This document shows positions 2,962 through 16,997 of a stretch of DNA of 16,997 nt, piece after piece. Position numbers and translations under genes: made by a program. The stretch is from Candidatus Desantisiibacteriota bacterium (lineage in GTDB: Bacteria; JACRDZ01). Position 1 is the stretch's first letter; each line of letters opens with the position of its first letter. Below the pieces are notes generated by a model. That model was not told the origin of the DNA. It did not search any database and was given only the letters and a program-made list of their open reading frames with translations. The stretch spans positions 1 through 16,997 of the forward strand of contig JACQWU010000145.1 in NCBI GenBank assembly GCA_016209155.1, read 5' to 3'.

Positions 2962-3354
2962 TTATCTTTTCAGATTCTCGAAATATTTTATCACAACTTC
3001 TTTGTCACTGAATTCAATCACTTTATCTTTAAAAATCTGTTTGGTCTCATGACCTTTTCCGGCGATCAATACAAAATCCCCCTGGTTTGCAATACTTAAA
3101 GCTTTTTCAATTGCTTTTTTACGATCAATTATTTTTATATAACATCCTTTTTTATCTTTAGGTATGCCGGCTATAATTTCTCCGGCAATTTTATCAGGAT
3201 CTTCAGAATGTGGGTCATCAGATGTAATTATCACATAATCGCTGTAAGTAACAGCTATCTTCCCCATTTCCGGACGCTTAAATTTATCTCTGTCACCGGT
3301 TGCACCAAATACCAAAATTATCCTGCCGAGGGAAAGAAATTTTGCCGTTTCCAA
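2962..3354 (-). pseudogene. murE: MurE C-terminal fragment (UDP-MurNAc-tripeptide synthetase), separated from its N-terminal part
   Basis: This 130-codon open frame holds the end of the MurE central domain and its C-terminal ligase domain. Visible are GRIILVFGATGDRDKFKRP, like the GG.GDRD.GKRP block of Mur ligases, then SDYVIITSDDPHSEDP and LIAGKGHETKQI near the end, all MurE-specific. The diamino-acid recognition motif, usually DNPR in meso-diaminopimelate enzymes, reads DDPH here. The frame is -1 relative to the upstream fragment and overlaps it by 37 nt. Its first codon is TTG within homologous sequence, with no Shine-Dalgarno, so independent translation is unlikely. The preceding family segment of about 50 residues with the DYAHTPDAL motif is absent. 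I read this as the 3' part of a broken gene. Confidence 0.8.
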
Positions 3355-4127
3355 CCGACAGCAGCCATTATATTGTATACATTAAACATTCCTATTAATT
3401 TAACCTTACAATCGATAGCACCTTTCGGTGTAATTAAAGATAAAGAAGTTCCGTCAGCGCAAATTGATACATTAAAAGCGACAATATCACTTCCTCTTGA
3501 AAAACCATACGTAATTATTTTTTTACCGCATTTAACTAAATTATCGGAAAAAGGATCATCCTTATTAATCACTGCAATCCCATCGGATTCTAAATAATGA
3601 CAAAAAAGCTCTTGCTTGGCTTTTCCATATTCCTCCATTGTTTTATGATAATCCAGATGATCATGAGTAAGATTCGTAAAAATCGCTATTTTAAACTGAC
3701 TTCCCCAAACTCTTTTTTGCGCAAGAGCATGTGATGACACTTCTGCCACTACATACTCCACTTTGTTTTCAACCATTTTAGTTAAAAGGGATTGAAATTC
3801 AACGGGATCGGGAGTTGTATATTTTGGTGAAAATTTTTCCTCACCGATTTTATTATAAATAGTTCCAATAATTCCGGATTTTTTGCCGGCAACATTCAAA
3901 ATAGATTCCAATATATAAGAGGTAGTGGTTTTTCCATTAGTCCCTGTTCCCTTTTTAATCGCATTTTCTATATAATCATTACCATCAGAAGTATCCCCTT
4001 TAACAGCAACAAAAATTCCCCCCGGAAGTACCTGGCGTGAATCATGGGCAACTGATGTAAACTTCACATTAGGATCTCCCCTAACCGCCTTTATTTCAAT
4101 TGTCTTTACCAAATCACCAAGAATCAT
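3318..4127 (-). pseudogene. murE: MurE N-terminal and central-domain fragment with internal deletion and frameshift
   Basis: MurE normally adds the third amino acid (usually meso-diaminopimelate) to UDP-MurNAc-L-Ala-D-Glu in the cytosol. The fragment starts well, with an ATG at 4127 behind AAGGA and VKFTSVAHDSRQVLPGGIFVA (21-41), the UDP-binding domain. At residue 60 the text jumps from NAIKKG straight to the P-loop TGTNGKTTT (61-69). The family normally has about 55 residues between these points, so most of the end of domain 1 is missing. The central domain continues normally with TTPDP (104-108), EVSSHAL (129-135), TNLTHDHLDYH (151-161) and FNVYNIMAAVG (248-258), then runs into 11 unrelated residues and a stop. 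Together with the downstream fragment about 390 residues remain of an expected 480-500. Deletion within a real gene and assembly collapse are both possible. It precedes queA in an apparent operon. Confidence 0.8.
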
Positions 4128-4577: not shown

Positions 4578-7500
4578 TTATATCTTTATTGGAATGATAA
4601 AAGAGAATGTACTGCCTTCTCCTATTTTGCTTTTCACCCATATTTTTCCTTCATGTAATTCAATATAAAGCTTAGATATAGAAAGTCCTATTCCCATGCC
4701 GCTATATTTGCGTATGATTGAGTTATCAACTTGATAAAATTTTTCAAATATTTTTTCATGCTCTTCTGGTGCAATCCCTATGCCTGTATCAGTAATATCA
4801 ATTTGAATAAAATCGTTTTTAATTTTCATGAGTTTTATTTTTATTTTCCCGTTTATGTCAGTAAATTTTATTGCATTTTCTAAAAGATTAATAATAACAC
4901 GTGCTATTTTTTTATTATCAGCATTAATTATAATTGGCTCATCAGGTAATTCCAGTGCGATTATTATTTTTTTTACTTCTGTTTTTAATTTTAAAGATAC
5001 GGCAATTTCTTTAATTAATTCATTAATATTAAAACTTACTAATTTAAGCTTCTCACCTTTTGAAACTATTTTTGCATAATTTATTAAGTTTTCTATTAAA
5101 GATTTAATATGTTCTGTCTTTTTTTGCGTAATTTTCAGTTGATTCTCAACAACAACATCTAAATGTCCCGAAGTGTTGGATAAAATCAAATCGATATAAC
5201 CTTTAATTACTGTAAGCGGTGTATTTAGTTCATGAGAGATATTGGATAAAAAATTATCTTTCATTTTATCCAGAGTTTTCAACTCTTGATTTGTTTCAAA
5301 TAATTCCTTATAAAGTAATGCATTTTCCATTGATATTGCTATTTGAGAACATAAAAGCTTTAATATTTCAATTCTTTCTTTAGTAAAAGCATATGTAATA
5401 AGATTATTTTCGAGATACAGGATTGCTAAAATATGCGATTGTTTAAGAATAGGAATACACAAAATAGATTTTGGTTTATTTTTTAATATATACTTATCCG
5501 GGTAAAAAGCATTTTTAATACCCGCATCATCTATTATTACATCTTCTAATGTATGTTTCACATAGTTTATTATATTTTTTGGGATATTCGAATATTTATC
5601 TAAAACCGTATTGTTAATTATTTCAATTTCCGTATTATTTATATTGCAAACTGCGGTCACATATAATTCATCACTTTTGCTTATAATAATTATACCTTTT
5701 TCAGCACCTGCATTTTCCATAATTATATACATCAAAGTTTTAATAAGTTTATCAAAAAATATCTGTTTACCCCAGGTGACCACTTTTACATTTGCTCCCC
5801 ATTTAATATAACACTCTATTGCTCTTCCAATATATACACCAGCGGTAATATTTCTGCCATTTTTAAGATAAAATTTACCTGCAAGCTCATAACCAAGCGC
5901 TTCTTCATGAATAAATTCATTTTTATTTGCCATCTCAATTGCCTGATCATACAATTTTATCGCAATATTTTTTTTATTTTTTAACCGGGATAATTCTGCT
6001 TTAATAAGCAGATATTTATGCTTAAAGTTTTCGGGACAATATTTTGTCCATTCTTTTAATTTATCCAAATTCGCATTTAACTTTTTTTCATATCTATCTT
6101 TATCAGATTCAGGTAAAATATAAAAATTTGCTATTACTATTAATGAATAATAAAAAACTGCTATTACTTCCGTATAAATCCCCGGAGCACTTTGAAAATA
6201 TTTTTCTCCATCAGATGCATGAATAAATGCTTCTTTATCATTTCCAAGAATGTAATTTAACATTAATTTCCATGCATAGCATTCTGTTTTTAATACTAAA
6301 GGTTCTTCTTTTTGTACTGATTTAATAAAAAAATTATCCTGATCAAATTCTTGATTTATCTGTTTAAAAGGATCACCGGGTAAATCCGTTAGTTTAACAA
6401 CAATGTTTGCCTCATTCAAATAAAAATATTTTACATTTTCATCTTTGTTGGTTTTTATGAAATCTAATGAAGTTTGCATATTATTATAGATATCATGCAA
6501 ATTATCACCTTTTGAAATACTAATAAGATTTATGCCTACAGAGCTGAATGTTGCAAATATAATATCCCCAACTTTTAATCCATAATCATAAGCTTCTTTC
6601 ATATATTTCAAAGATGTCCTTAGATGCAATTTCCAATGTGAGACATGCCCTCCGAATATTTCATATAATTTTGGTATCTGGTTTATATTTTTAAATTTGT
6701 CATTTAAGCTTAATGCTAATTGAGCAAATTTATATCCTGTTTCAATATCATGGGCAACGCCCATAAGCATTAAGGCATAAAGCATATTTGCATAAGAGGA
6801 AAATGACGAATTCCCATATTTCAAAGAAATATTTACTACTTTTAATATAGAAAGTGAAAATAATTTATGATTAGATAAATAGGAAGTTATACTTAGATCA
6901 ATTAATATTTTAATTATAATTAATTTTTCAGGATCATTCAATTCCTTAGAATTTATTATATCTTCAACTTTTCTTTTACCAATATTTTTCTTTACTTTAT
7001 TAAATTCATTTACAATCTCATTGTCCTCCGGAAATTCCGGTAAATTTAAATTGAATAATTTTAATGCCTCGATGCCGATTCTGTTTGCCTCACTGAATTT
7101 TCCCCTGCTTGAATATAATTTAATTTTGAGATTTAGGAGTTCACCTTTTTCAAATTTTGTTTTTGATCTTTTAAAAATGTTTTCAAAAAGTTTTTCAGCT
7201 TCATCAAAATTACCTGTTAGAAAATAACATTCGCATTCAATTGAATAAAGTGAGTAACACAATATGTAATTTTCATTCCAGTTTTTTTCATTTATTAAGG
7301 AAATACCAAATTGCACATATTTCAATGCAGAAAGATAAGCATTAGATTGTTTTGCCTTTTCCGCAGCTTTCAAATTAATTTCCGCAGCTTTTATTTTTTC
7401 TTCCGGTAGAGTTATAAGATCAAGAGCAAAATTAAGATGAGTTGCAATATCAAAATATTTTTCGGATAATTCATTTTTTGGTGTTTTTTGATAAATCAGG

Positions 7501-9575
7501 TTTCCAATTTTTAAGTGTATTCCTTTTTTTTCTTTTTCTGAAATAAGAATATTGATAGATTCTGCAATTTTATCATGATAAAATTTAAAATAATTGCTAA
7601 AGTTTAGGATGAGACCTTCCTTAATTGCCATTGTTAAATCTGCGTAAGTTTTTTCAATAGTATTGTTATATACGGAAGATAAAGTTTCAATATCGAATTG
7701 ATCTCCAAAACATGCCGCATATTCAAGACATTTTATGGTTTCATCCGGAAGTTTTTTGATTTTCTCAACCATCAGATCAACAATATTATCTGAAAATATC
7801 AAATTTTTATTTCTTTCAATATCAATAAAACATTCAAATCCAATTAATTTATTTTTATAAAGATTGTATAAATATTGATAAATAAAAAATGGATTTCCGT
7901 TGGTTTTTTTATTTATAAAATCCACAAAGTCATTAATCTGATTTTTTTCACATTCAAATGCGTCTCCTATCAACTGGGCAATATATTTTAGTTCCAGCGG
8001 TTTTAATTCTATTTTGTTAATTTGCATAACTTTTTCAACAATTTCATTTATTGTATTAAAAAGAATATGCGATTTGTCTACCTCATTATCTCTATATGCT
8101 CCGATTAATAATAAATATTTCACACTCGATTCTGATATTAAAAATTTTATAAGATTAAGACTTGCAGAATCAATCCATTGAAGATCATCTAAAAAAATAA
8201 TTAAAGGAGATTTATTTGAAGTAAATGTACTGATAAAATTTTTCAAAACAAAATTGAATCTAATATGGGTTTCGATTGGATTTAAAGGCATTATTGGCTG
8301 TTGTTTTCCAATAAGCATTTCCAGTTCCGGAATTATGTCAATAATAATTTGTCCGTTTATATCTAAAATTTTCGAAATTTTTTCTTTCCATATTTCAATT
8401 TCCTGTTCACTTTCTGAGAGTATCCTTTTTATAATTTCTCTAAATACAAGAATCAATCCGCTATAAGGAATGGTTTTAGTTATCTCATCAAATTTTCCTG
8501 ATGCAAAATAAACATTTTCATCATAAATGGAATTAAAAGCTTCATTAATTAAAGTGGTTTTACCGATACCCGGCGGTCCGGAAATTAAAATTAATTCGGT
8601 ATTACCTGATTTTGTCTTTTCGAAAATATTCCTGATAAGTTCAATTTCCTGTTTACGTCCATATATTTTATGATGGATATCAAATCTTGCAGGAATATCT
8701 TTTTGGCCAAGCGAAAATAATTCGATTTTATTATTTTTTATGTAATTATTTAAACATACCAGTAAATCATTTCTTAATCCTTCCGCATTACAATATCTTT
8801 CTTCCGGTATTTTAGATGTTAATTTTTGAATCAAATTAATTATCATTTCCGGTATATCAAAGTATAAATCTGAATCAAATTTAATAGATTTAGCCAAATG
8901 AGAATGAATAATTTCAAGGGTATCATCGGATACAAAAGGGGCATAGCCTGTCAGCATTTCATAAGAAATAATGCCAAGTGAATAAAAATCTGTTTTATAA
9001 TCAACTAAACGTTTTATTCTCCCGGTCTGTTCAGGGGAAATATAAGGAAGTGTATATTTAATAATTTTTTCATTAAACATAGAAATATTTTTTATATACT
9101 GAATTTGAGGAATACCATAATGAATTACATTAATATTATTCTTTTCATTTATTAGAATATTGTATGGTGTAAGATGGTTATGAAAAATATCAATATTATG
9201 TAATGTATTTAATTTTTCCGATATATTAAAGGCAACTTCAAGAAATGTTTTAACATCAAAAGAAGTATTTTTTTCAATATATGATTTCAGAGTTATCCCG
9301 TCAAAATACTCCATAATTATGATTACTTCATAATTATTATCAATTATTTCATTGATTCCTAATAACTCTGATTGTGGATTATTTTTTAAAAAATTATATT
9401 CATATTTAAGTTTTGCAATATAATTTTGCCAAAAATATAATTTTTTATAAATTGAGATTAAAGCTTTTTTGCGAATATCAGAATTTAGATGAGCAGAATA
9501 TGTAGATACAAAAACAAGTTCGCTTACTTTTTTATCTAAAGTATAATTAGAAATATTTTTCATTATAATATTCAC
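4578..9575 (-). CDS. Multi-domain sensor: kinase-like domain, AAA ATPase, TPR-like region, GAF, histidine kinase
   Basis: A 1665-residue cytosolic signalling protein with no membrane segment seen. (1) A Ser/Thr-kinase-like fold (about 10-275) keeps YISPEQTGR (178-186) and DFYSLGIISYE, but the VAIK lysine position appears to be Ser41, HRD reads HNH (132-134) and DFG reads HYG (152-154), so it is probably a pseudokinase. (2) An AAA_16/STAND-like ATPase has Walker A GPPGIGKT (333-340) and Walker B LIIFLDD (Asp463-464). (3) A long helical, TPR-like region spans about 660-1250. (4) A GAF domain spans about 1277-1415. (5) A histidine kinase shows SHELNTPL with phospho-acceptor His1448, N-box Asn1567, DTGIGIAP from Asp1596 and GMGIGLSI (1626-1633), all intact. 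There is no receiver domain, so a separate response regulator is expected. Translation may begin at GTG 9575 or ATG 9563; neither has a good Shine-Dalgarno. This architecture is known from cyanobacteria, Leptospira and myxobacteria. Its DNA is the most AT-rich of the window. Confidence 0.88.
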   Translation of the reverse strand: MNIIMKNISNYTLDKKVSELVFVSTYSAHLNSDIRKKALISIYKKLYFWQNYIAKLKYEYNFLKNNPQSELLGINEIIDNNYEVIIIMEYFDGITLKSYIEKNTSFDVKTFLEVAFNISEKLNTLHNIDIFHNHLTPYNILINEKNNINVIHYGIPQIQYIKNISMFNEKIIKYTLPYISPEQTGRIKRLVDYKTDFYSLGIISYEMLTGYAPFVSDDTLEIIHSHLAKSIKFDSDLYFDIPEMIINLIQKLTSKIPEERYCNAEGLRNDLLVCLNNYIKNNKIELFSLGQKDIPARFDIHHKIYGRKQEIELIRNIFEKTKSGNTELILISGPPGIGKTTLINEAFNSIYDENVYFASGKFDEITKTIPYSGLILVFREIIKRILSESEQEIEIWKEKISKILDINGQIIIDIIPELEMLIGKQQPIMPLNPIETHIRFNFVLKNFISTFTSNKSPLIIFLDDLQWIDSASLNLIKFLISESSVKYLLLIGAYRDNEVDKSHILFNTINEIVEKVMQINKIELKPLELKYIAQLIGDAFECEKNQINDFVDFINKKTNGNPFFIYQYLYNLYKNKLIGFECFIDIERNKNLIFSDNIVDLMVEKIKKLPDETIKCLEYAACFGDQFDIETLSSVYNNTIEKTYADLTMAIKEGLILNFSNYFKFYHDKIAESINILISEKEKKGIHLKIGNLIYQKTPKNELSEKYFDIATHLNFALDLITLPEEKIKAAEINLKAAEKAKQSNAYLSALKYVQFGISLINEKNWNENYILCYSLYSIECECYFLTGNFDEAEKLFENIFKRSKTKFEKGELLNLKIKLYSSRGKFSEANRIGIEALKLFNLNLPEFPEDNEIVNEFNKVKKNIGKRKVEDIINSKELNDPEKLIIIKILIDLSITSYLSNHKLFSLSILKVVNISLKYGNSSFSSYANMLYALMLMGVAHDIETGYKFAQLALSLNDKFKNINQIPKLYEIFGGHVSHWKLHLRTSLKYMKEAYDYGLKVGDIIFATFSSVGINLISISKGDNLHDIYNNMQTSLDFIKTNKDENVKYFYLNEANIVVKLTDLPGDPFKQINQEFDQDNFFIKSVQKEEPLVLKTECYAWKLMLNYILGNDKEAFIHASDGEKYFQSAPGIYTEVIAVFYYSLIVIANFYILPESDKDRYEKKLNANLDKLKEWTKYCPENFKHKYLLIKAELSRLKNKKNIAIKLYDQAIEMANKNEFIHEEALGYELAGKFYLKNGRNITAGVYIGRAIECYIKWGANVKVVTWGKQIFFDKLIKTLMYIIMENAGAEKGIIIISKSDELYVTAVCNINNTEIEIINNTVLDKYSNIPKNIINYVKHTLEDVIIDDAGIKNAFYPDKYILKNKPKSILCIPILKQSHILAILYLENNLITYAFTKERIEILKLLCSQIAISMENALLYKELFETNQELKTLDKMKDNFLSNISHELNTPLTVIKGYIDLILSNTSGHLDVVVENQLKITQKKTEHIKSLIENLINYAKIVSKGEKLKLVSFNINELIKEIAVSLKLKTEVKKIIIALELPDEPIIINADNKKIARVIINLLENAIKFTDINGKIKIKLMKIKNDFIQIDITDTGIGIAPEEHEKIFEKFYQVDNSIIRKYSGMGIGLSISKLYIELHEGKIWVKSKIGEGSTFSFIIPIKI

Positions 9576-9755: not shown

Positions 9756-9782
9756 TTAGCACTCTAATAATGTGAGTGCTAA
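9756..9782. promoter_or_regulatory. CIRCE operator, HrcA binding site
   Basis: A perfect consensus element: TTAGCACTC (9756-9764), nine bases, then GAGTGCTAA (9774-9782). HrcA, encoded 100 bp downstream, binds this repeat when folded with GroEL help and represses transcription; heat stress relieves it. The operator lies right after the -10 box of the operon promoter, so binding should block initiation. It is the only CIRCE found in the window. Confidence 0.97.
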
Positions 9783-11667: not shown

Positions 11668-13353
11668 ATGTCAAAAATTATTGGAATAGATTTGGGAACT
11701 TCTAACTCTGCCGCAGCAGCTATGGAAGGAGGGAAACCTACAATCATTCCTTCTGCTGAAGGGACTTCTGTCGGAGGAAAGGCTTTTCCATCTTATGTGG
11801 CTTTTACTTCAAAAGGAGAACTTTTAATCGGTGAACCGGCACGGCGTCAGGCTGTAACTAACCCTGAGGGAACTATTATTGCTAATAAAAGGAAAATGGG
11901 AACAGCACATAAATATAATATTTACGGAAAAGAATACACTCCTGAACAAATATCAGCTCATATTTTGCAAAAAATTAAAAGAGATGCCGAGTCTTTTCTG
12001 GGTGATAAAATCGAAAAAGCTGTTGTTACAGTTCCGGCATATTTTGACGATCACCAGCGTCAGGCCACAAAAGATGCAGGGAAAATTGCAGGGCTTGATA
12101 TCATACGTATTATAAACGAACCTACTGCCGCATCACTTGCATATGGGATAGATAAATCTACTAAAGAGCAAAAAATACTCGTGTTTGATCTTGGTGGAGG
12201 TACACTTGATGTAACAATAATGGATTTTGGACAGGGAGTATTTGAAGTTATTTCCACTTCAGGCGATACGCTCTTAGGCGGAACTGATATGGATAATGCT
12301 CTGATAAATTATGTATGTGATGATTTTAAGAACAATACAAATATTGATCTTCGAAAAGATAAAATGGCTATGCAGCGTGTTAGAGAAGCTGTGGAAAAAG
12401 CGAAAATAGAACTTTCAAACGTTATTGAGACAGAAATAAATCTTCCATTTATAAGCGCAACAAATGAAGGGCCACAACATCTTGCAATGAAATTACGAAG
12501 AGCTAAACTGGAAGAATTAATTGCTCCCATTATAGATCGATGTTCTAAGCCGATTGATAATGCCTTAAAAGATGCTAAGCTTACACCGGATAATATTGAT
12601 AAAATAATTATGGTCGGCGGTCCGACCCGTATGCCGATTGTACAAAAATTTCTTGAAGATCATGTAGGAAAAAAGATTGAACGCGGTGTTGACCCGATGG
12701 AATGTGTGGCTATGGGCGCTGCAATTCAGGCTGCAATTCTTCAAGGTGACATTAAAGATGTTTTGCTTTTAGATGTTACTCCTCTTTCACTGGGGATTGA
12801 AACTCTCGGCGGAGTGTTTACTAAATTAATTGAAAGAAATACCACAATCCCAACCCGTAAAAGCCAGATATTTTCTACTGCATCTGATAATCAGCCGGCA
12901 GTAAGCATTCATGTTCTTCAGGGAGAAAGAGAAATGGCCTCTTACAATAAAACTCTCGGAAGATTTGATCTCGTCGGCATTCCTCCAGCCCCGAGAGGTA
13001 TACCGCAGATTGAAGTTACTTTTGATATAGACGCAAACGGGATTGTACATGTATCGGCAAAAGATCTTGGTACCGGAAAAGAGCAAAAAATACGAATTGA
13101 AAGCTCAAGCGGTTTATCAAAAGAGGATATTGATAAAATGGTTAAAGATGCTGAGTCGCATGCGGCACAGGATAAAAAAAGAAAAGAAGAAGTTGAGATA
13201 CGCAATCAAGGAGATACACTGGTTTATACAGTTGAAAAATCCTTAAAAGAGTATGGCGATAAAATTAGTGCTGAAGATAAAACAAAAATTGAAAATAGTA
13301 AGATTGATAGAAGTTCTCCTTTAAATATTTTAGGTGAGGATGTCCAGTGGTAA
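11668..13353 (+). CDS. dnaK: Chaperone DnaK (Hsp70) with damaged helical lid and missing native C-terminus
   Basis: ATP-driven chaperone acting with DnaJ and GrpE. The nucleotide-binding domain (1-363) is complete: [13 protein letters not shown] (5-17), [10 protein letters not shown] (151-160), [12 protein letters not shown] (172-183) and VGGPTRMP (316-323), then linker [13 protein letters not shown] from 364. The beta substrate-binding domain is normal ([37 protein letters not shown]). AAAGGAGG (11651-11658) supports the ATG at 11668. The protein stops at residue 561, whereas relatives have about 600-640. After EDKTKIEN (536-543) helix C of the lid appears to be missing, the text jumps to [12 protein letters not shown]-like helix D sequence and then ends. 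The typical acidic tail DADFEVVDDDKK is found downstream in another frame (13428-13475). The domain lacks the roughly 25-residue insert of Gram-negative DnaKs. ATPase and peptide binding may survive; lid closure should be impaired. Confidence 0.93.
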
Positions 13354-13356
13354 AAA

Positions 13357-13420
13357 AGTAGGAGGACACGCTTGTGAATGGGCAAAAGCCATTGCAATCA
13401 GCTACCTTGCTTCCAGCTGT
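13357..13420 (+). repeat. GTAGGAG-type repeat inserted in the dnaK 3' region
   Basis: Begins with GTAGGAG (13358-13364), continues with a degenerate CAC-GCTT-GTG hairpin (13367-13376), then ATGGGCAAAAGCCATTGCAAT (13378-13398 overall) and a CAGCT/AGCTG inverted repeat (13399-13403 with 13415-13419). The order GTAGGAG, spacer, ATGGGC-loop-GCC-ATT matches the minus-strand reading of the intergenic repeat at 4323-4397. It lies between the dnaK stop and the out-of-frame coding tail, so it very probably inserted into dnaK or replaced part of it. Borders are approximate; no target duplication could be defined. Confidence 0.55.
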
Positions 13421-13475
13421 AAAAGATGCTGATTTTGAAGTAGTAGATGACGATAAAAAAGATGATAAAAAATAA
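13421..13475 (+). pseudogene. dnaK: Detached DnaK C-terminal acidic tail
   Basis: The frame ending at the TAA of 13473-13475 reads VKDADFEVVDDDKKDDKK, the standard acidic DnaK terminus. It is offset by -1 from the dnaK frame. A TAG at 13359-13361 in this frame lies after the dnaK stop at 13351, so no single frameshift before that stop could join them. No start codon or ribosome site precedes it. It is a remnant showing that the ancestral gene extended to about 13475. Confidence 0.75.
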
Positions 13476-15445: not shown

Positions 15446-16997
15446 TTATTTTTTATCATTACATTTGTCCGCAGAAGGTATAAATTTTAGCATTGACACT
15501 TCTGTTCCCTTGCATGGATCCATATCAAACTTTACTTCATCCATAAAACCTTTTATTAGTAATAATCCCCTGCCATGGTCTGAAAATATCACTGATTTAT
15601 CACGCGGATCTTTTATTTTGTTTATATCAAATCCCTTGCCATGGTCACGTACGCATACAATCAATTTATCTTTTTCAATTTGGTAATAAATACCCACCCA
15701 ATCATCTCTATCAAAATCAGTTCCATATGTTATTGCATTTATAACCGCTTCTTTAATCGCAATCATCCATTCCGAAGCAGTATCAGTGTCAAAACCTACA
15801 ACAAGGGCCAACTCTTCATTTATTATATCTACAATAAAAATGTAATCAAGCATTGCTTTTAAATTTAATTTTAAAATTTTTGAATTATTATTTTGCTCCG
15901 AAGGAGTATCTTCTAATGATCTTTTAAGAAAAATATTTTCAACATCAATTTCCTCAAAATTTATTTTCTCTGAAATTATATTTTTATCTTTCATTGCTTT
16001 TAAAACTCGTATTGCTGCTTTATGCACAATAGAGCTAAACCATTTATCCATATAGGTTATTACCATTTTTTCCGTTAAAGCATTTCTGCATACATCCGTG
16101 CATGTATAGGTCTCATCTTCTTTCTTGAAATTAATATCAATAACTAATAAAGCAATATCATCTTTTAATTTATTCTGACCGCTGAAACGTATAACTTCAT
16201 TATAAATAGCATCTTTTATCTCTCCGCATGGTTTTGAAATATTTTTAAACACCGTACGGATGAATCTTTCCTCACCAAAGCAATCATGCTTATGATTGCT
16301 TGCTTCAATTATTCCATCAGTGTAAAGAATTAAAAGGTCTTCATTCTGAAGCTGAATTGTGTTTTCATGATAAGTTGAATTATGAAAAATACCCAAAAGC
16401 AAATCACCTGTTTTAAGTGTTTCAAATGTTCCTGTATTGCGATGAAAAAGATAAGCGGGATCGTGACCGGCATTGGAATAAGTCAGCATAAAATTCTTTT
16501 TATTAATTACTCCATAAAATAAAGTTATAAATATATCGGAATATGCTTTATTGTCTGCAATAATTAGTTCGTTAAGTTCGCTCAATACTTTTTGAGGGAA
16601 AACTTTATCAATAGCTTCTATTTTTATAAAACTGCGCACCATAACCATCAATAGACTTGCCGGAATATCTTTACCTGAAACGTCTCCTATAGTAACAGCC
16701 AGTAAATCTTTTTCTTTAATATCAATTACATCGCAATAATCTCCGCCCATTTCCTTGGCTGGAACTGATAAAAATTCTAAATCAAGGCCGGTAACGTAAG
16801 GCATTTTTTTTGGCAGAAGCTGAATCTGAATCTCACGTGCCATTTCCATTTGATGATCAATACTCTTTTTAGCGATTGAGACTTGTAATAATTGGCTATT
16901 TTCAATAGCAGTAGCTGCCTGGCTTGCAAGAATTATTAAAAGCTTCATGTCATTTTCAGTAAATGCATCATTTGAGCTTTTATTATTTACATTCAAA
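15446..16997 (-). CDS. SpoIIE/PP2C-type phosphatase fused to an RsbW-like ATPase, N-terminus outside window
   Basis: Signalling protein of the partner-switching type. Within the 516 visible residues: the end of a GAF domain (LIILASQAATAIENSQLL, about 20-37), a linker helix with AREIQIQLLP (53-62), then a SpoIIE phosphatase domain (about 75-290) with KEMGGDYCD (81-89, metal-binding Asp86), IGDVSGKD (103-110), YSNAGHDPA (173-181), LYTDGIIEA (224-232) and LKDDIALLV (277-285). All acidic metal ligands expected are present. About 110 poorly conserved residues follow, then a HATPase_c_2 domain with EAVINAITYG (416-425, N-box Asn420), VRDHGKGFD (449-457) and DHGRGLLLI (473-481). Such proteins usually dephosphorylate an anti-sigma antagonist; the ATPase resembles the kinases that phosphorylate it. 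No antagonist or sigma factor gene is in view. The frame is open to the window edge and the GAF is cut, so the TTG at 16996 is not the real start. Confidence 0.88.
   Translation of the reverse strand, partial: LNVNNKSSNDAFTENDMKLLIILASQAATAIENSQLLQVSIAKKSIDHQMEMAREIQIQLLPKKMPYVTGLDLEFLSVPAKEMGGDYCDVIDIKEKDLLAVTIGDVSGKDIPASLLMVMVRSFIKIEAIDKVFPQKVLSELNELIIADNKAYSDIFITLFYGVINKKNFMLTYSNAGHDPAYLFHRNTGTFETLKTGDLLLGIFHNSTYHENTIQLQNEDLLILYTDGIIEASNHKHDCFGEERFIRTVFKNISKPCGEIKDAIYNEVIRFSGQNKLKDDIALLVIDINFKKEDETYTCTDVCRNALTEKMVITYMDKWFSSIVHKAAIRVLKAMKDKNIISEKINFEEIDVENIFLKRSLEDTPSEQNNNSKILKLNLKAMLDYIFIVDIINEELALVVGFDTDTASEWMIAIKEAVINAITYGTDFDRDDWVGIYYQIEKDKLIVCVRDHGKGFDINKIKDPRDKSVIFSDHGRGLLLIKGFMDEVKFDMDPCKGTEVSMLKFIPSADKCNDKK

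Follow-up and report, generated by a model that had tools for sequence, protein, structure and literature searches.

A kinase-fold domain without its three catalytic residues in a STAND-ATPase/GAF/histidine-kinase sensor of a Candidatus Desantisiibacteriota bacterium

Does the N-terminal kinase-like domain of a giant bacterial sensor still act as a kinase, and, if not, what might it be kept for? This question is raised by a protein of 1661 aa encoded in a stretch of 16,997 nucleotides from a Candidatus Desantisiibacteriota bacterium (assembly GCA_016209155.1, contig JACQWU010000145.1; hereafter the window), whose N-terminal domain was described in an initial annotation as a pseudokinase that may control an AAA ATPase and an intact histidine kinase in the same chain. 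The gene starts at an ATG at position 9563 (an alternative in-frame GTG lies at 9575), and Pfam gave the domain order, from the N to the C terminus, as protein kinase, AAA_16 (STAND-like; E 1.3e-37), a helical/TPR-like region to which TPR models match weakly (E 0.0096 and 0.049), GAF (E 4.1e-08), HisKA and HATPase_c. The 19-residue hydropathy profile peaked at 1.98 (residues 1133-1151), in a single borderline stretch that lies within the helical region. The architecture is single-copy in its genome (a bin that is 78.8% complete, in 352 contigs), and no response regulator adjoins the gene. The features of the sensor, in window coordinates, are the following:

4578..9563, minus strand: whole sensor gene, 1661 aa (ORF list and Pfam)
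8694..9563, minus strand: pseudokinase domain, residues 1-290 (Pfam Pkinase, AlphaFold2 and VIA)
9453..9455, minus strand: Ser37 at the beta-3 VAIK lysine position, within ALISIY at 9447-9464 (alignment columns and predicted strand)
9159..9182, minus strand: HNHLTPYN in place of HRDxxxxN; His130 stands at the catalytic Asp position, and H128 and N135 are kept
9114..9122, minus strand: HYG in place of DFG; His148 stands at the metal-binding Asp position
9018..9038, minus strand: SPEQTGR of the APE region, kept (motif reading and alignment)
8973..8990, minus strand: DFYSLG of the alpha-F region, kept (motif reading and alignment)
8553..8582, minus strand: Walker A of the AAA ATPase, SGPPGIGKTT, intact (GPPGIGKT at residue 329)
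8175..8192, minus strand: Walker B of the AAA ATPase, LDDLQW, intact (DDLQW at residue 459)
5214..5237, minus strand: H-box of the histidine kinase, SHELNTPL, intact (SHELN at residue 1443)
4680..4889, minus strand: N, G1, F and G2 boxes of the histidine kinase, NLLENAIKFT, DTGIGI, FEKF and GMGIGLS, intact (NLLENAIKF at residue 1559, DTGIGI at 1592, FEKF at 1606, GMGIGL at 1622)

First, the fold of the domain was found to be that of a kinase. A chance likeness to kinases was ruled out by the Pfam Pkinase match (E = 3.5e-26) and by the VIA match to the solved structure of PknB (Z 27, 253 aligned, rmsd 2.6); PknA scored a Z of about 27 too, and the matches to both structures span about 255 residues. 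The structure prediction that had been suggested as a check on the initial reading, made with AlphaFold2 from 40 aligned sequences, gave a kinase fold as well (mean pLDDT 84.3, pTM 0.86). The near-invariant columns of the family were kept to different degrees along the domain (4 of 10 in the N-lobe, 10 of 17 in the catalytic region and 39 of 52 in the C-lobe), and the structural motifs SPEQTGR and DFYSLG were retained where they had originally been placed, on the minus strand.

Second, we found that the loss of all three catalytic signatures, as originally claimed, holds in profile HMM and MAFFT alignments: Ser37 (codon TCA), His130 (CAT) and His148 (CAT) fall on the columns of the VAIK Lys, the HRD Asp and the DFG Asp, each of these residues being 90-100% conserved among relatives whose catalytic set is intact. 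The serine, numbered 41 in the initial annotation, is the same residue, since 41 counts from the GTG and 37 from the ATG; it lies within the predicted beta-3 strand (residues 29-40 in the AlphaFold2 model). On the other hand, H128 of HRD, the loop residue N135, the DFG Gly and a Glu at the alpha-C position are retained, so that three catalytic side chains have been lost rather than whole motifs. Inspection by eye revealed no Lys in beta strands 1-3 that takes the VAIK position (residues 5-42), and the catalytic loop was free of acidic residues beyond H128 (residues 119-155); the family alignment, the other check that had been suggested, did not relocate the catalytic Asp and Lys elsewhere in the pseudokinase domain. 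With the fold kept, the three catalytic residues gone and no migrated Lys or Asp, the reading of the domain as a pseudokinase is borne out; the histidine kinase is intact, as had been stated, and so are the AAA motifs. Judging from its sequence, the domain would most likely lack productive ATP binding, and we infer that both catalysis and nucleotide binding are absent from it.

The sensor belongs to a family that has already been described. CP1 kinases, a family in a classification of 42 that also sets residue constraints for each, are joined to the COG3899 predicted ATPase, often together with GAF or PAS, and lack transmembrane regions; about 40% of the family are pseudokinases (PMC12599244, a 2025 review). 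The window sensor has a kinase-fold domain according to Pfam, AlphaFold2 and VIA, a fused COG3899-type ATPase, as judged by the AAA_16 match and by alignment through the AAA domain with CP1-type relatives, and a GAF domain. None of the VAIK Lys, HRD Asp and DFG Asp expected of a catalytic Ser/Thr kinase is present, whereas both Walker A and Walker B of the NOD, as expected of a STAND NTPase, and the H-box His with the N, G1, F and G2 boxes of a sensor histidine kinase are found. The protein is a further example of the known, pseudokinase-rich CP1 family, and its sole unusual feature is the double-His pocket. A similar case is Leptospira interrogans Q8F6Y5, a CP1 member in which all three motifs are degraded (KILR / Hnqigpss / WLG; PMC12599244) and which likewise combines a kinase fold with a COG3899-type ATPase and GAF; compared with Q8F6Y5 and the CP1 family, the window sensor differs in its Ser/His/His replacements and its complete C-terminal histidine kinase. 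The nearest sequence neighbours are cyanobacterial cbSTKIII / HstK-type proteins (Ser/Thr kinase - GAF - histidine kinase; PMC2176072), which show the same domain order and up to 42% identity over kinase and AAA but are mostly intact KD kinases (HKDIKPxN ... DFS/DFG). No kinase activity was seen for SpkE, in which the HRD Asp is missing along with other residues (PMC2176072). The fungal proteins Chk1, Mak2 and Mak3 (S_Tkc - AAA_16 - GAF - HK - REC; PMC9069115, PMC5383687) have the same N-terminal order, a likeness judged by domain order, but they are eukaryotic and carry a receiver domain; hyphal formation was impaired in Chk1 without S_Tkc and AAA (PMC9069115, PMC5383687).

How unusual the replacements are was assessed in a census of 172 distinct, aligned CP1-type kinase domains that retain PE[QR]TG and the AAA domain, taken from the matches listed in a scan of named genomes and from searches of about 820 further genomes. 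A single-protein scan of genome contigs returned no relative, and relatives were reached by using an alignment of the C-lobe and AAA as the query. Among the 172 rows, 130 were intact at the three residues, 40 had lost at least one of them and two were masked or truncated and could not be judged. The HRD Asp was the residue most often lost in the degenerate rows and the Lys the least often, the latter being kept at the VAIK column in 161 of the 172. No homologue with the same His replacements occurred among these rows (about 820 genomes and the matches listed from one scan), where the window stood alone both in having His at either Asp position and in having Ser at the VAIK Lys. Complete loss is rare, yet it is not unique to the window, because five other rows (L278, L281, L285, L287 and L288) have no alignable Lys, have lost the HRD Asp and show no Asp at DFG. 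The initial statement that a recognisable kinase core is usual among relatives of this architecture was true of the cyanobacteria-rich samples (116 of 124 intact), a label based on the titles of named loci and on sequence likeness, but not of the other samples. Specifically, degenerate rows made up 8 of the 124 assessable ones in the best-hit and cyanobacteria-like samples, against 32 of 46 when the wider sample was taken together with four extra genomes and with the phylum of one sampled genome (G055); as the samples were not random, the overall degenerate percentage is no measure of frequency. A second pseudokinase type, with LGNLNPDx for HRDxxxxN and no alignable N-lobe Lys, was observed in the phylum of G055, where it spans several families (L278, L280, L281 and L291), and one proteobacterial protein (L116) had a tandem pair of kinase domains preceding the AAA domain.

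Loss of catalytic residues appears to have occurred repeatedly. On a tree of 86 rows built with the catalytic columns left out, a minimum of 14 switches between intact and degenerate had to be assumed (for the HRD Asp, 12), a rough count because most inner branches are poorly supported. The window grouped with an intact Spirochaetes protein and with a clade reading xGGxKPHN, at support values of 74-84 that are not firm. This clade (L021, from the phylum of the window, L197-L199, L273 and L274) shares the CP1 architecture with the window; however, its HRD Asp is replaced by Gly rather than His, the Lys is kept and some members keep the DFG Asp. The tree did not show a single vertical pseudokinase lineage in the phylum: the window groups only weakly (74) with the protein of its phylum mate G003 (L021), and the latter is nearer to another phylum. 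In the kinase, L021 shares 69% identity with proteins of that other phylum, a small one, and far less with the window sensor; its proximity to L197-L199 suggests horizontal transfer of the xGGxKPHN pseudokinase type. Walker A was intact in 39 of the 40 degenerate CP1 kinases, and thus the ATPase outlasts kinase activity. A reading suggested by this is that the ATPase acts as the conserved switch, with the kinase fold as a module around it. Relatives that have repeatedly lost the HRD Asp while keeping the ATPase point to a non-catalytic role, possibly general in the CP1 family.

We consider that the domain is probably a CP1-type pseudokinase that serves as a non-catalytic docking or allosteric module of the STAND-ATPase/GAF/histidine-kinase sensor. 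An unlikely alternative is that it is a non-contributing evolutionary remnant, with function carried by the AAA, GAF and histidine kinase domains. No N-lobe in the sample is more diverged than that of the window sensor (mean identity 0.18), and the kinase as a whole is the most diverged relative to its own AAA domain (z = -6.2), which could also be a sign of decay; moreover, an invariant Gly of the activation segment is replaced by Tyr. However, the frame is open across 290 codons, the kinase fold is predicted with confidence and the signature columns of the C-lobe are retained. In addition, the kinase domain of the related xGGxKPHN clade is, judged by codon comparison of L197 and L198 (kinase, dN 0.024 and dS 0.23; AAA, dN 0.027 and dS 0.21), under purifying selection at a dN/dS of about 0.1; the sample contained no close relative of the window gene for a selection estimate of its own.

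Residual or altered catalysis, in the form of nucleotide binding or another transfer reaction with unusual residues, as in SelO or SidJ, seems a good deal less probable still. The retention of N135, of the Gly that follows HY and of the alpha-C Glu would be compatible with it, and pseudokinases with other activities are known (PMC12599244), but Ser replaces a lysine that most degenerate CP1 relatives keep, and neither the migrated Lys in beta strands 1-3 nor the acidic residue after H128 was found. A slender chance may also be given to the Ser/His/His pocket as a new site, in which His130, His148 and N135, with H128 near in sequence, would bind a transition metal or another ligand and make the pseudokinase itself the sensor; in the alignment, His130, His148 and N135 occupy the positions where kinases hold the catalytic base and the metal. 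It is hardly credible that faulty sequencing or assembly of the metagenome bin gave rise to the replaced residues, even though the neighbouring murE and dnaK appear broken and hint at local faults or real lesions in it, since the three substitutions are separate and lie within one open frame, residues beside them have changed too (HNHLTPYN, IHYGI), and no large gaps interrupt the alignment of the domain from one end to the other.

If the domain is a docking or allosteric module, STAND proteins offer an analogy from which a scheme can be drawn, MalT, a STAND switch with a TPR sensor, being an example (PMC6468293). The resting sensor would be autoinhibited around an ADP-bound, STAND-like AAA core, with the pseudokinase alongside in a docking or allosteric role. 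If a partner or ligand bound to the pseudokinase, the helical region or GAF, autoinhibition would be released, upon which the core might switch from the ADP to the ATP form and multimerise, the C-terminal histidine kinases would cluster and autophosphorylate, and the phosphate would be handed to an unlinked response regulator. The partner, the ligand, the oligomerisation, the order of events and the output are what we infer from this analogy. The original proposal that the pseudokinase senses a ligand or partner and controls both the AAA ATPase and the histidine kinase is plausible. Because the lysine is gone, unlike in most degenerate CP1 relatives, and the ATPase and histidine kinase are intact, the protein offers a clean test of whether the kinase module of these large sensors can do without catalysis. 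To our knowledge, hardly any bacterial pseudokinases have been examined by experiment.

Several neighbouring loci in the window also deserve mention. An exact CIRCE element, TTAGCACTC-N9-GAGTGCTAA, was found at 9756-9782 (0 in 200 shuffles), upstream of hrcA-grpE-dnaK-dnaJ, in the intergenic stretch that separates these genes from the divergently oriented sensor gene. The dnaK gene has an early stop (13310-13475), and beyond it a sequence ending in DDDKKDDKK resembles the lost C-terminal tail, lying in a different frame or behind a stop. On the other side of the sensor, murE (2962-4127) consists of two overlapping ORFs in different frames, with internal segments apparently missing; its split appears to be a frameshift with a deletion, or an assembly fault. 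Finally, a SpoIIE-type phosphatase fused to an anti-sigma-like HATPase (15446-16996), cut by the end of the window, lies on the same strand as a gene for a metallo-beta-lactamase-fold protein.
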